From NCBI GenBank assembly GCA_903924985.1, contig CAIYDT010000138.1, positions 1-49,026 on the forward strand: a stretch of DNA of 49,026 nucleotides, in the 5' to 3' direction. The position numbers were made by a program, and so were the translations under genes. Shown one piece after another: positions 2,179 to 16,597 of this stretch. Within the stretch, counting starts at the first letter, position 1; each line of letters opens with the position of its first letter. The notes below the pieces were generated by a model, which was given only the letters and a program-made list of their open reading frames with translations, searched no databases and had not been told where the DNA came from. The DNA comes from an uncultured Acetobacteraceae bacterium. GTDB lineage: Bacteria; Pseudomonadota; Alphaproteobacteria; Acetobacterales; Acetobacteraceae.

Positions 2179-2732
2179 CCTTCCTTACCGATTTTGCCGA
2201 TCAGGCGGTAATGTTGCCGCTCGTGTTGGCGGTGGCGGTCGTGCTGACACTGCAAGGGTGGCGGCGGGGGGCCGTGGCGTGGCTGGGGGCGATCGGCGTC
2301 ACGTTCTTCGGCATGCTGGTTCTGAAGCTGGTTTTCCTCGGATGCGCCTCGGTGTTTGGGCCGGTGGCGCTGCGCAGCCCCAGCGGTCACACGGCGGCGG
2401 CGGCGGTGGTGGCCGGCGGGGTGGCGGCGATTTATGGGGGCGGACGGCGGACCGTCCTGGTCGTTGCTTTGTTGGCGGCGATCGCGATCGGGCTGACGCG
2501 GGTCGGGTTGCGCCTGCACTCCTGGCCGGAGGTTGCGCTCGGTGCGGCCATCGGGGTGGCCGGTGCGCTGGCGCTGGCCCGCTTTGCCGGCCCGCCGCCG
2601 GTGTTGCGGCTACGGCCGATGGTGCTCACCGCGGCCTTCGTTCTGGCGCTGTTCCATGGCCGGCATCTGGAGGCGGAGGTCGCGTTGCGGCAGGCCGCCG
2701 ATGGGTTTCCCTGGTGTCAGGCGCGGCCGTAG
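2175..2732 (+). CDS. PAP2-superfamily membrane phosphatase
   Basis: A 185-residue membrane protein with several hydrophobic segments. It has the PAP2 signature motif 2 (SPSGHT, about residues 68-73) and a motif-3-like segment TRVGLRLHSWPE with the catalytic-type His. Motif 1 (KxxxxxxRP) is not clear, so it is a divergent member. Such enzymes dephosphorylate lipid phosphates or isoprenyl pyrophosphates at the membrane. It starts at GTG 2175, overlapping the leuD stop by 4 bp, although no link to leucine synthesis is obvious. Its 3' end overlaps the convergent manC-like gene by 16 bp. Next to a GDP-mannose enzyme, a role in polysaccharide or lipid-carrier recycling is possible but inferred. Confidence 0.75.
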   Translation: MTFLTDFADQAVMLPLVLAVAVVLTLQGWRRGAVAWLGAIGVTFFGMLVLKLVFLGCASVFGPVALRSPSGHTAAAAVVAGGVAAIYGGGRRTVLVVALLAAIAIGLTRVGLRLHSWPEVALGAAIGVAGALALARFAGPPPVLRLRPMVLTAAFVLALFHGRHLEAEVALRQAADGFPWCQARP

Positions 2733-4141
2733 GTGTCTTCCAGCCGCACGATATCGTCCTCCCCGAGGTAAGCGCCGGACTGCACCTCGATCAGGGTCAG
2801 CGGGATCTTGCCGGGGTTTTCCAGGCGGTGGACGCAGCCAAGGGGGAGGTAAACGCTCTCGTTCTCGCGGAGGATCATGATCTCCTTGTCGCGGGTCACC
2901 CTGGCGGTGCCGTTCACCACCACCCAGTGTTCGGCCCGGTGGTAATGGCTTTGGAGGGATAGCTGCCGGCCGGGGTACACCACGATGCGCTTGACCTGGA
3001 AGCGGTCGCCCTGGATCAGGCTTTCATAGAAGCCCCAGGGGCGGTGGCCGCGGTTGTGGGCTGTGGCCTCGGGGCGGCCGGCGGCTTTCAGGCGATCGAC
3101 GATCTTTTTGACGTCCTGCGCCATGCCGCGGTGCATCGCCAGCACGGCGTCCTCGGTCACCACCAGGACGGTGTCCTTGAGCCCCACGACGGCGGCGAGG
3201 CGGCCGTCGGTGCGGATGTAGCAATTCTCCGCGCCCTCCAGGAACACGTCGCCAAGCGTGACGTTGCCGGCGTTGTCCTTGGCGCCGAGCTCCCACAGGG
3301 CGCTCCAGCTTCCCACGTCCGACCAACCGATATCCGCCGGAACGACGGCTGTCCGGTTGGTGCGTTCGGCGACCGCGTAGTCGAGGCTGATGGACGGGCA
3401 GGCGCTAAACGCCTCGACGCCGAGCCGGATGAAATCCAGGTCGGTGGCGCGTTCGGCGACGGACTTGCGGACGGCCGGCAGCACGTCGGGGGCGTGGGTG
3501 TCCAGTTCGTCCATCAACGTGCGGGCGGTGAACACGAACATGCCGGAGTTCCACAGATACTGCCCATCCGCGACGAGGCGCGCGGCGGTGGCGGCATCGG
3601 GCTTTTCCAGGAAGCGGGCGACGGCGTGGACGCCGGGGGCGTCGGGCAGTTCGGCGCCTTGTTCAATGTAGCCGTAGCCGGTTTCCGGCGCCGTCGGGCG
3701 CATGCCGAAGGTGACGATCCGGCCGTGGCGGGCGGCGGCCACGGCGAGGTCCAGCGCGGTTAGCAGCGCCGGCACGTCGCCGATCGCGGCGTCGGCGGCC
3801 ATCATCCACAGGATTGTGTCGGGGTCGTCCTCCGCCACCAATACCGCGGCGGCGGCGATGGCGGGGGCGCTGTTGCGGCCCACCGGTTCCAGCACGATGC
3901 GGGCGCCCTCGATCCCGGCGTCGCGGAGCTGTTCGGCGATCAGGAACCGGTGCTCCTGGTTACACACCACGATGGGCGGCGCGAATTCCGGGCCTTTGGC
4001 GCGCAGGGCGGTTTCCTGGATCATCGTGCGGTCGGATACCAGCGGCCAAAGCTGCTTGGGGAAGCTCTCGCGCGATACCGGCCAGAGGCGGGTGCCGGAG
4101 CCGCCCGACAGAATCACGGGGACGATGCGGGATTGGGTCAT
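2717..4141 (-). CDS. manC: Mannose-1-phosphate guanylyltransferase / mannose-6-phosphate isomerase (bifunctional)
   Basis: A 474-residue bifunctional enzyme of the ManC/AlgA/CpsB type that makes GDP-mannose for exopolysaccharide or LPS. The N-terminal nucleotidyltransferase domain has ILSGGSGTRLWP (10-21) followed by ESFPKQ. The middle has FLEKP and NSGMFVF. The C-terminal cupin (about residue 350 on) has RPWGFYE and SHYHRAEHWVVV, the metal-binding isomerase motif. The canonical PADH near residue 110 reads AADAA here, a small departure. The start is ATG 4141; the frame continues upstream but without similarity. It is divergent from the SelW-like gene at 4229 and convergent with the PAP2 gene. 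Confidence 0.92.
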   Translation of the reverse strand: MTQSRIVPVILSGGSGTRLWPVSRESFPKQLWPLVSDRTMIQETALRAKGPEFAPPIVVCNQEHRFLIAEQLRDAGIEGARIVLEPVGRNSAPAIAAAAVLVAEDDPDTILWMMAADAAIGDVPALLTALDLAVAAARHGRIVTFGMRPTAPETGYGYIEQGAELPDAPGVHAVARFLEKPDAATAARLVADGQYLWNSGMFVFTARTLMDELDTHAPDVLPAVRKSVAERATDLDFIRLGVEAFSACPSISLDYAVAERTNRTAVVPADIGWSDVGSWSALWELGAKDNAGNVTLGDVFLEGAENCYIRTDGRLAAVVGLKDTVLVVTEDAVLAMHRGMAQDVKKIVDRLKAAGRPEATAHNRGHRPWGFYESLIQGDRFQVKRIVVYPGRQLSLQSHYHRAEHWVVVNGTARVTRDKEIMILRENESVYLPLGCVHRLENPGKIPLTLIEVQSGAYLGEDDIVRLEDTYGRA

Positions 4142-4228: not shown

Positions 4229-4447
4229 ATGCGGATAGAGATCGAATACTGCGGCATGTGAGGCTATGAGCCACGCGCCCGTGCGGCGCGTGACCAGTTG
4301 CTGCAAGCCCATCCCGGCGCCGAGATCGCCCTGAAGAAATCGGGCGGCGGCGTGTTCGAGATCGTCGTGGATGGGCGGTTGGCCTACTCCAAGAAGGCGA
4401 CTGGCCAGTTCCCGACGGCTGCCCAGGTGCTCGGGGTTCTTGCCTGA
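4229..4447 (+). CDS. SelW/Rdx-family selenoprotein (CxxU), in-frame UGA read as selenocysteine
   Basis: From ATG 4229 the frame gives MRIEIEYCGM, then TGA at 4259-4261, then continues open as GYEPRARAARDQLL to TGA 4445-4447, 73 codons in all. With the first TGA as selenocysteine the product has the CxxU redox motif at residues 8-11. It then shows the Rdx pattern GGGVFEIVVDGRL and SKKATGQFPT, matching the SelT/SelW/SelH family in order and length. These thioredoxin-like proteins act in thiol redox reactions. AGG at 4218-4220 lies 8 bp before the ATG. A perfect hairpin with a GU loop follows the UGA at the bacterial SECIS distance (separate entry). The gene is divergent from manC and 50 bp upstream of a moxR gene. 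Sec insertion needs selABCD, none of which are in this window. A pseudogene is less likely, given conservation on both sides of the UGA. Confidence 0.82.
4272..4292 (+). promoter_or_regulatory. Bacterial SECIS-like hairpin after the in-frame UGA
   Basis: CACGCGCC (4272-4279) pairs perfectly with GGCGCGTG (4285-4292) around the five-base loop CGTGC (4280-4284). The stem starts at the 11th base after the UGA and the loop GU is at bases 20-21. That fits the bacterial rule of a GU-containing apical loop roughly 16-37 bases downstream, and the E. coli fdhF mini-SECIS geometry. No bulged U is present in the 5' arm, unlike fdhF. The element lies inside the coding sequence, as expected for bacterial SelB-binding elements. 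Confidence 0.75.
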
Positions 4448-4497: not shown

Positions 4498-5343
4498 GTG
4501 GCCGGTTTCAAAAGCACCGAACGATACATCGCCTCCCGCGATCTGGAGGTCGCGGTCAACGCCGCCGTGACCCTGGAGCGCCCGTTGCTGGTGAAGGGCG
4601 AACCGGGCACCGGCAAGACCGTGCTGGCGCACGAGGTCGCCCAGTCGCTCGGGATGCCGCTGATCGAGTGGCACATCAAATCCACCACCAAGGCGCAGCA
4701 GGGCCTTTACGAATACGACGCCGTGTCCCGCTTGCGCGACGGGCAGTTGGGCGATGAGCGGGTGCGCGACATCGGGAATTACATCGTCCGCGGCAAATTG
4801 TGGGACGCGTTCGAGGCCGAGAAGCAGGTGCTGGTGCTGATCGACGAGATCGACAAAGCGGATATCGAGTTTCCCAACGATCTGCTGCTGGAACTCGACC
4901 GGATGCAGTTCTTTGTCTACGAAACCCGCAAGACGGTGGCGGCGAAGCACCGGCCGATCGTGATCATCACGTCGAACAACGAAAAGGAACTGCCGGACGC
5001 CTTCCTGCGCCGCTGCTTCTTCCATTACATCCGGTTCCCGGATCGCGAAACGATGGAACGCATCGTCCAGACCCACTATCCGGACATCCGCAAGGACCTC
5101 GCGCGTGAGGCATTGAACGTGTTCTTCCAGGTGCGGGAGGTTCCCGGCCTGAAGAAGAAGCCCGCGACGTCGGAATTGCTTGACTGGCTCAAGCTTTTGA
5201 TGGTAGAAGATTTGCCCCCGGAAGCCCTGCGTGCGAACGAAAAACACGTTGTGATTCCGCCGCTGCACGGCGCGCTGCTGAAAAACGAGCAGGACGTGCA
5301 TTTGTTCGAACGCCTTGCCTTCCTGGCGCGCCGGGGGGGCTGA
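4498..5343 (+). CDS. MoxR-family AAA+ ATPase (module 1)
   Basis: A 281-residue AAA+ ATPase. The Walker A motif is GEPGTGKT (34-41), Walker B is VLVLIDEID (111-119), and a sensor segment IITSNNEKELPDAFLRRC follows. MoxR ATPases work with VWA-domain partners as maturation chaperones, for example CoxD with CoxE in CO dehydrogenase maturation. The GTG start at 4498 has AAGGA about 8 bp upstream. The TGA overlaps the ATG of the VWA gene (TGATG), so the two are coupled. The target enzyme is unknown. A second MoxR-VWA pair lies at 11445-13798. Confidence 0.9.
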   Translation: MAGFKSTERYIASRDLEVAVNAAVTLERPLLVKGEPGTGKTVLAHEVAQSLGMPLIEWHIKSTTKAQQGLYEYDAVSRLRDGQLGDERVRDIGNYIVRGKLWDAFEAEKQVLVLIDEIDKADIEFPNDLLLELDRMQFFVYETRKTVAAKHRPIVIITSNNEKELPDAFLRRCFFHYIRFPDRETMERIVQTHYPDIRKDLAREALNVFFQVREVPGLKKKPATSELLDWLKLLMVEDLPPEALRANEKHVVIPPLHGALLKNEQDVHLFERLAFLARRGG

Positions 5344-6521
5344 TGTTCTCCCATTTGATTCTCGGGCTGCGAACGGCGGGTCTGCCAGCCTCCATCACGG
5401 AATATCTGACCCTGATGGGGGCGATGAAGGCCGGGGTCGCGGAATACAGCATCGACGATTTCTACTATTTGGCGCGCGCCACCCTGGTGAAGGATGAGCG
5501 GCACCTCGATAAATTCGACCGCGTGTTCGGCGCCTGCTTCAAAGGGCTGGAACCGCCGGAGGGCGTAAAGGTCCAGGACCTGCCCGAGGAATGGCTGCGC
5601 AAGCTGGCCGAGAAGATGCTGACGCCCGAGGAAATGGCCAAGATCGAGGCCATGGGTGGCTTCGACGCGCTGATGAAGCGCCTGCAGGAACTGCTGGCGG
5701 AGCAGAACAGCCGGCACCAGGGCGGGTCCAAGTGGATCGGCACGGCGGGGACCTCCCCGTTCGGCGCGTACGGCGCCAACCCCGAGGGCGTGCGCATTGG
5801 CCAGGACAAATCCCGCAACCGCACCGCCGTGAAGGTGTGGGACAAGCGGGAATTCAAGGATCTGGACGACACCGTGGAACTCGGCACCCGGGGCATGAAG
5901 CTGGCACTGCGCCGGCTGCGCCGGTTCGCTCGGCAAGGGGCGGCAACGGAGCTGGATCTGCCGGACACCATCCTGGCGACCGCGAAGAACGCGGGGTCGC
6001 TGGATTTGAAAATGGTCCCCGAACGGCACAACACCGTGAAGGTACTATTGCTGCTGGATATCGGCGGGTCGATGGACGACCACGTGAAGCTGACGGAGGA
6101 GCTGTTCTCCGCCGTTCGTTCCGAGTTCAAGCATTTGGAATACTATTATTTCCACAATTGCCCGTACGAGCGGGTGTGGAAAAACAACCGCCGGCGGCAC
6201 GAGGAAGTCATCCCGACCTGGCAGGTGCTGCGGACCTATGGGCCGGACTACAAGCTGGTGATCGTTGGGGATGGAGCAATGAGCCCGTACGAGATCACCA
6301 TGGCTGGCGGGTCGGTTGAACATTGGAATGAGGAAGCCGGGACGGTGTGGCTGGACCGGCTCACGGGCCACTACCGGCGGTCGGCTTGGCTGAACCCGAC
6401 ACCGAAGCAAAGCTGGGGGCACGTGCGCTCGATTACCATGCTGAACGATGCGATGGAGGGGCGGATGTTCCCGCTGACGGTCAATGGCATCGACGAAATG
6501 ACGCGGGAGTTAAGCCGCTAG
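5343..6521 (+). CDS. CoxE-like VWA-domain protein (module 1)
   Basis: A 392-residue protein with a C-terminal von Willebrand A domain, the usual partner of a MoxR ATPase. The metal-site motif reads DIGGS (239-243) rather than the classic DxSxS, so the first serine is replaced by glycine; GDGAM follows later. The N-terminal half is charged and has no transmembrane segment. The start ATG 5343 overlaps the moxR stop. It probably presents a client protein to the ATPase; the client is not identified. It is followed after 10 bp by the MetE-like gene, suggesting cotranscription. Confidence 0.85.
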   Translation: MFSHLILGLRTAGLPASITEYLTLMGAMKAGVAEYSIDDFYYLARATLVKDERHLDKFDRVFGACFKGLEPPEGVKVQDLPEEWLRKLAEKMLTPEEMAKIEAMGGFDALMKRLQELLAEQNSRHQGGSKWIGTAGTSPFGAYGANPEGVRIGQDKSRNRTAVKVWDKREFKDLDDTVELGTRGMKLALRRLRRFARQGAATELDLPDTILATAKNAGSLDLKMVPERHNTVKVLLLLDIGGSMDDHVKLTEELFSAVRSEFKHLEYYYFHNCPYERVWKNNRRRHEEVIPTWQVLRTYGPDYKLVIVGDGAMSPYEITMAGGSVEHWNEEAGTVWLDRLTGHYRRSAWLNPTPKQSWGHVRSITMLNDAMEGRMFPLTVNGIDEMTRELSR

Positions 6522-15475: not shown

Positions 15476-16597
15476 ATGATGCTGATTGAGGCGGACGGGA
15501 AGGCGTTGTTCCGGGAGCATGGCATCCCCGTGCCGGCCGGGATCGTCGTGGCGGATGGGCGGGCCGCCGATCTGCCGGGCTCCGGTCCCTGGATAGTCAA
15601 GGCGCAGGTGCCGGTGGGCGGGCGCGGCAAGGCGGGTGGGATCAAGAAGTGTGCGACCCCCGCACAGGCCGGGGCAGCCGCCGCCGCGATGATCGGCACG
15701 CGGCTGAAAGGGCACACTGTCGATGCGTGCCTGATCGAGCAAGCCGCCACGGGCCAGGAACGCTATCTGGCCGTCATGGTCGATGCCGCCAACCACGAGC
15801 TGCGGGTCATCTGGTCCGCCGCCGGCGGGGTGGAAATCGAGCATTCCGGCGCCGCTGAGGGTCGGTTGTGCCCCCTACATCCCGGTGCGGTCGCGGACGC
15901 CCTGGCCGAAATGATCGCCGATGAGCCGGAGGCTTGGCGGTCGTCCGCCCTGTCGATCGGACGGCATCTGGCCGAGATGGTGCTGTCGAAGGAACTGGCT
16001 CTGGCGGAAATCAACCCGCTGTTCGTGTCCGCCGAGGGCTGCCTCGCGGGCGACGCCAAGGTTGTTGTCGATTTGAACGCGGTTCCCCGGCAGCCTCGCA
16101 TCGCCGAACTGGTGGCGGCGCGTCCAGGGATCTATGTCGATGCCAACCGGAAGCTGAAGGAGGGTTTCGACTATGTCGAACTCGATCCATCCGGGGAAAT
16201 CGGGCTGGTGACGACCGGTGCGGGTCTGTCGATGATGCTGATCGACGAACTGACGGCCCGCGGCGCCAAACCGCTCAATTTCTGTGACATCCGCACCGGC
16301 CAGATGCGCGGCAGTCCGGCGCGGCTGATGCGGGTGCTGGAATGGATCACCTCGCGGCCGTCGCTGAAGGCAGTGCTGGTTAACATCTTCGCTGGGATCA
16401 CCGACCTTGGCGAATTCGCCGGATTGTTGGCTACCGCCATCGAGCAATCGCCTGCGTTGAAGGTTCCGGTCGTGGCTCGCTTGGTGGGACGTGGGGCGGC
16501 GGAGGCGCGCCGCATTTTGGCGGAGCGGCAGCCGGGTATGCTGGTGACGGAAGATCTCGACGAAGCCTTGGTTCGGATCCAGGAGATCGTGCGATGA
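15476..16597 (+). CDS. SucC-like ATP-grasp CoA ligase beta subunit
   Basis: A 373-residue relative of the succinyl-CoA synthetase beta subunit. It has the N-terminal ATP-grasp region (VKAQVPVGGRGKAGG, about 42-56), ALAEINPLFV, and a C-terminal CoA-ligase domain with TTGAGLSMMLID and VNIFAGITD. It is shorter and more divergent than TCA-cycle SucC (about 386-398 residues), so it may activate malate, methylsuccinate, citramalate or another dicarboxylate instead. Start ATG 15476 lies just after the dehydrogenase stop; ATG 15479 follows directly. It overlaps the alpha-subunit gene by 4 bp. Confidence 0.84.
   Translation: MMLIEADGKALFREHGIPVPAGIVVADGRAADLPGSGPWIVKAQVPVGGRGKAGGIKKCATPAQAGAAAAAMIGTRLKGHTVDACLIEQAATGQERYLAVMVDAANHELRVIWSAAGGVEIEHSGAAEGRLCPLHPGAVADALAEMIADEPEAWRSSALSIGRHLAEMVLSKELALAEINPLFVSAEGCLAGDAKVVVDLNAVPRQPRIAELVAARPGIYVDANRKLKEGFDYVELDPSGEIGLVTTGAGLSMMLIDELTARGAKPLNFCDIRTGQMRGSPARLMRVLEWITSRPSLKAVLVNIFAGITDLGEFAGLLATAIEQSPALKVPVVARLVGRGAAEARRILAERQPGMLVTEDLDEALVRIQEIVR

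Follow-up and report, generated by a model that had tools for sequence, protein, structure and literature searches.

The window (the whole stretch of 49,026 nucleotides analysed here) carries near one end a short selW-like gene of the Rdx family that is interrupted by an in-frame TGA and followed by a putative SECIS hairpin (Table 1). It is preceded by a divergently oriented manC-type gene and followed by genes for a MoxR-like AAA ATPase and a CoxE-like VWA protein. The manC gene lies beside selW in 23 of the 40 loci examined, some of which end at contig ends, and the two genes possibly share a divergent promoter region. The AAA ATPase gene was seen downstream of selW only in L023-L026 among the 40 loci.

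Table 1. Features of the selW-like locus (window positions) and related genes elsewhere in the same genome (contig or locus handle before the positions)
Feature	Position	Strand	Description and basis
manC-type mannose-1-phosphate guanylyltransferase/mannose-6-phosphate isomerase gene	2717-4141	-	TIGR01479, 679.6 bits; divergent from selW
selW-like (Rdx family) selenoprotein gene	4229-4447	+	72 residues, CxxU motif C8-G-M-U11; translation, Pfam, NCBIfam, relatives, predicted fold
In-frame TGA, inferred selenocysteine codon	4259-4261	+	residue 11; TGA in 36/37 relatives, Cys in 1
Putative bacterial SECIS hairpin	4272-4292	+	stem 4272-4279/4285-4292, loop CGTGC 4280-4284, G-U at 4281-4282
Terminal TGA stop of the selW-like gene	4445-4447	+	sequence, translation
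AAA ATPase (MoxR-like) gene	4498-5343	+	PF00004, PF07728; downstream of selW
CoxE-like VWA protein gene	5343-6521	+	PF05762; downstream
tRNA-Sec	C111:12289-12380		73 bits, anticodon TCA
selA	C111:12414-13742		560 bits; contig and strand of tRNA-Sec, gap of 33 bases to selA match
selB (L009)	C222:8135-9955		one of two divergent paralogs
selB (L010)	C110:3553-5403		one of two divergent paralogs
Candidate UGSC-family selenoprotein gene	L112:16363-16743	+	TGA 16498-16500, U-G-S-C motif; contig also with selB
Candidate UGSC-family selenoprotein gene	L114:2134-2781	-	TGA 2371-2373, U-G-S-C motif; contig also with selB

The selW-like frame opens with ATG, has TGA as codon 11, continues with 61 sense codons and closes with a second TGA; read with U at codon 11 it translates to MRIEIEYCGM-U-GYEPRARAARDQLLQAHPGAEIALKKSGGGVFEIVVDGRLAYSKKATGQFPTAAQVLGVLA-stop. 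The start was chosen from relatives, the frame being open upstream of it: under the standard code the ORF begins with GTG at 3950, codes for 103 amino acids and stops with the TGA at 4261. The original prediction gave sequence and coordinates exactly and rightly recognized the CxxU motif; the frame is also continuous, as it held, but its 73 codons include the stop, so that 72 positions are coded.

With Sec at codon 11 the protein matches Rdx (PF10262) with an E value of 3e-19 and 69.4 bits against a curated cut-off of 22.6 (Pfam) and TIGR02174 with 58.1 bits against a cut-off of 34.2 (NCBIfam). Both matches extend over nearly the whole length and cross the TGA site, which bears out the Rdx membership claimed from the motifs on either side of it. 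The NCBIfam equivalog NF041051 (SelTWH_Campy), a SelT/SelW/SelH family (seleno)protein model, finds each of the 27 aligned proteins with an E value of at most 0.001, yet the window protein, with 77.6-77.7 bits, stays below its cut-off of 88. Genes of this kind, which look interrupted by a stop, are plausibly easily overlooked by automatic gene finding; since the models TIGR02174 and NF041051 exist, a selenoprotein-aware pipeline could find this one.

A structure predicted with AlphaFold2 from a 27-row alignment (window plus 26 of the 37 related loci described below), with Cys in place of Sec, reached a pLDDT of 96.3. Its elements run strand, helix, three strands, two helices, and the strand at residues 2-8 precedes the C8-x-x-U11 motif. 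The predicted model is of the SelW-type thioredoxin-like fold. In a Foldseek search against the PDB the top hit was 2fa8 (TM 0.91), followed by 2obk, 2oka, 3dex, 2ojl and 2p0g; MIEN1 (2ljk; TM 0.80) and mouse selenoprotein W (2npb; TM 0.77) came after these SelW-related proteins and before thioredoxins. A sequence profile search recovered the same eight entries. The last two are animal proteins of the same fold family, with 34% and 29% identity, respectively. The solved bacterial proteins 2fa8 (from Agrobacterium), 2oka, 2obk and 2p0g, which we take to be Cys forms, resemble the window protein in sequence family and predicted fold (TM 0.89-0.92); the window gene differs from them in carrying TGA for the second motif position.

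A lone stop inside a frame usually points to a broken gene, and the assembly is a draft, in which a Cys or other codon could have been turned into a stop by mutation or by a sequencing error. The relatives speak against such a dead or misread gene. A genome collection scanned with the window protein returned 37 related loci; TGA occupies the site in 36 of them and a Cys codon in the remaining one, L058 (Arhodomonas), the in-frame UGA thus aligning with Cys or Sec in the homologs; since the only one of the six search peptides to span the site had Cys there, the scan was without bias to TGA. The nearest loci are labelled Acetobacteraceae, with Rhodopila globiformis DSM 161 among the 37, and others are labelled Desulfuromonadales, Desulfobulbaceae, Verrucomicrobia, Hydrogenedentota and more, so that the same TGA recurs in other records and, by label, in several phyla. 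Both positions of the CxxU motif (C written for U) are invariant in the 27 aligned proteins. The protein is also constrained downstream of the TGA: in nine near relatives compared with the window over the 150 bases 3' of it, most of the differences (181 of 318) are at third codon positions, the pattern that selection on a protein would produce. A lack of such conservation had been named beforehand as a finding that would speak against Sec; in the TGA relatives that were read, the downstream part is conserved. A pseudogene or sequencing error is on this evidence most improbable.

The genome itself, placed in Acetobacteraceae by the labels of its nearest loci (5,585,638 bases in 285 contigs, 98.7% complete, 7.5% contamination), contains selA, selB, tRNA-Sec and selD, the four genes whose presence the original prediction had proposed as a check. 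The tRNA-Sec lies beside selA; ARAGORN classes two further tRNA-Sec matches over the cut-off as tRNA-Ser. Contigs C222 and C110 each carry a selB gene over the cut-off, and contigs C213 and C91 each a selD gene. The selD match at C91:5097-5993 (L019) lies within an open frame of 709 residues, the N-terminal part of which resembles an oxidoreductase by eye. All machinery genes sit on contigs other than that of the window, but these contigs resemble it in composition: for ten pieces of the five contigs the tetranucleotide profile has a correlation of 0.93-0.97 with that of the window, as compared with 0.964 for one half of the window against the other and 0.671 for the window against a stretch of E. 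coli. An origin of these contigs from a contaminant of related composition is conceivable. This machinery and the protein-level conservation downstream of the UGA support its proposed decoding as Sec, which in the window gene would then occur at codon 11.

A survey of 299 genomes of the family, our own included, found the frame with TGA in 34 genomes, our own counted; in two of them (G165 and G171) it is present only as a contig-end fragment. SelW-type selenoproteins are thereby placed in 34 of the 299 sampled genomes. selA was over the cut-off in 85 of the 299 genomes, among them 30 of the 34 with TGA-form selW (Fisher p about 1e-14) and none of the 35 with a stop-free homolog (Fisher p 5e-6), both tests ignoring shared descent. 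The Sec form thus tracks selA, and every genome with the distant Cys form lacked a selA match over the cut-off. The stop-free homologs resemble the window protein at 32-42% identity, and in each of the 35 the corresponding site reads CxxC, but they are of a recognisably different type, mostly CTQCNWLLR. From their sequences these Cys forms are a distinct, distant subfamily, so that the contrast between TGA and Cys with respect to selA is partly lineage-based.

Four TGA-form genomes are without selA over the cut-off. Three of these (G034, G139 and G289) are 72-82% complete and their best tRNA-Sec hits, of about 50 bits, are near the tRNA-Ser level of our own genome; the fourth, G230, is 95% complete and has a clear tRNA-Sec (81 bits). 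Conversely, 55 genomes have selA but no SelW match, including G199 and G265 of the same genus.

That the locus instead encodes two short peptides, one ending at codon 10 and another restarting downstream, would agree with the standard-code ORF, which ends at the TGA. The conserved Cys, however, stands before the TGA and the family core after it, one domain is matched from end to end, and the TGA form tracks selA; re-initiation is extremely unlikely. A genome-wide reassignment of TGA, for example to Trp, would also account for a TGA in frame. Its probability is close to negligible: the surveyed 31% of the genome contains 794 non-overlapping frames of at least 300 codons, and 414 of these end in TGA, as does the selW-like gene itself, and the residue at the site is Cys in the stop-free L058 and in all 35 stop-free homologs of the family. 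The conservation of the TGA, the normal use of TGA as a stop and the evidence on the frame led us to reject the pseudogene, split-peptide and reassignment readings.

UGA misreading occurs under low selenium, and a read-through in which the UGA is translated, at least in part, as an amino acid other than Sec is compatible with the sequence. The complete Sec machinery and the co-occurrence with selA make this very unlikely.

For Sec insertion in bacteria a hairpin just 3' of the UGA with a G in its small apical loop is looked for, and the predicted structure at 4272-4292 is of this form: a stem of eight pairs closes the loop CGUGC, with G-U at +20/+21 after the UGA. In E. coli fdhF the hairpin is in the same register and GGU occupies the same codon, likewise within the predicted loop; the two UGSC genes of our own genome (see below) have UGU and AGU at the corresponding codon. 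A comparison of the hairpin codons drew on 52 rows (window, L023-L043 and L060-L089), which gave 41 distinct sequences. Codons +4 to +9 show little synonymous variation, with 0 to 1 of 500 draws as low in an entropy test that ignores shared descent; the test is by itself without specificity, since codons outside the hairpin, such as -5, -3, +29, +43 and +47, are likewise unusually uniform. Codon +7 is CGU in 26 of the 41 sequences and another codon in 15; among its 32 Arg codons CGT thus accounts for 26, as compared with 11.8% of the Arg codons across the surveyed 31% of the genome. When the folding energy was ranked against synonymous recodings, the median rank of the 41 native hairpins was 17%, that of a control stretch 53%, and 4 of 41 hairpins versus 1 of 41 control stretches were at or below 5% of the recodings. 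The hairpin appears only modestly more stable than its recodings, and this energy test across the 41 relatives lends it weak support.

The evidence consists of the frame, the family and predicted-fold match, the conservation of the TGA, the Sec machinery, the co-occurrence with selA and the codon constraint in the hairpin. Judged from these sequence data, positions 4229-4447 are almost certainly a gene whose product is a small redox protein that contains selenium and belongs to a known family. We propose, with a probability of about 0.95, that this frame functions as a gene for a SelW-like selenoprotein of the Rdx family in which the UGA is read as Sec via SelB and the hairpin. SelB would bind the hairpin just 3' of the UGA, with G-U in the loop, and deliver Sec-tRNA(UCA) when the ribosome reaches the UGA of codon 11; read-through to the second TGA would yield a protein of 72 residues with a thioredoxin-like fold. 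Its C-x-x-U motif is predicted to sit on the loop after strand 1, and a role in thiol/selenol redox chemistry appears probable.

Bacterial SelW-like selenoproteins were in print by 2005 (PMC1088965), and they have been reported from marine metagenomes, Deltaproteobacteria, Clostridia and Symbiobacterium (PMC1088965, PMC2398784, PMC1794560). In ocean samples they were the largest selenoprotein family with 427 sequences (PMC2398784); a table in a survey of 2006 gives 10 for SelW-like (PMC1794560), the entry for Selenoprotein W like in the table of another paper reads 35 and 35 (PMC5029168), and SELENOW-like proteins are mentioned in PMC13188914. With a near full-length match to PF10262 and TIGR02174, CxxU and a predicted hairpin after the UGA with a G in a small apical loop, the selW-like gene belongs to this known bacterial family as a new member. 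It differs from the earlier cases in that its closest relatives carry the label Acetobacteraceae: for Alphaproteobacteria the 2006 survey counted one selenoprotein family and called FdhA the sole one (PMC1794560). The tRNA-Sec position differs also from the arrangement described for certain lineages such as Alphaproteobacteria, in which tRNA-Sec is nested in or overlaps selB (PMC13188914); in the window genome it is beside selA. A literature search on selenocysteine in Acetobacteraceae, selenium in Rhodopila and SelW, under that spelling, in Alphaproteobacteria, covering few subscription journals, returned no report of the present case. The analysis confirms a gene that a standard-code reading cuts off at the TGA.

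Formate dehydrogenase was considered as the main Sec client of the genome and rejected. None of the matches to the families TIGR01591 and TIGR01553 in our own genome (13 and 10) has an in-frame TGA, and in the best FdhA, on contig C147 (L101), the usual Sec site is occupied by Cys (ARVCHSP) despite the full Sec machinery.

A survey of TGA-interrupted frames covered 1,742,018 of the 5,585,638 bases (31%), so that other selenoproteins may exist. It gave 161 candidates, SelW included, which were judged by eye from frames and motifs; many of them appear to be adjacent genes joined by reading through a stop. The family scan beyond SelW covered two UGSC candidates only (Table 1). Both match PF24696 (1e-24 and 8e-32), while their scores of 99.6 and 106.4 with the equivalog NF041046 are under its cut-off of 125. 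In another genome of the collection (G051, locus L067) a UGSC-type TGA frame, with its TGA at 2973 on the minus strand, lies about 1.3 kb from the SelW gene.

The presence of two divergent SelB paralogs besides one selA match and one tRNA-Sec is a less ordinary lead, separate from the SelW result, and merits a study of its own; the phrase 'two selB' was not found among the literature matches listed. That SelW and UGSC proteins, and not formate dehydrogenase, are what this Acetobacteraceae genus retains its Sec machinery for, with the two paralogs served by one SelA and one tRNA-Sec, dividing the selenoprotein mRNAs between them and SelW assigned to one paralog by its hairpin, is an unlikely, though conceivable, explanation. 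Among 20 genomes of the genus selB is over the cut-off in 15, five of which have two copies (our own, G000, and G301, G304, G306 and G310). A tree built from 20 SelB proteins divides the two copies of G000, G304, G306 and G310 between two separate groups, with support of 100/100 for each.
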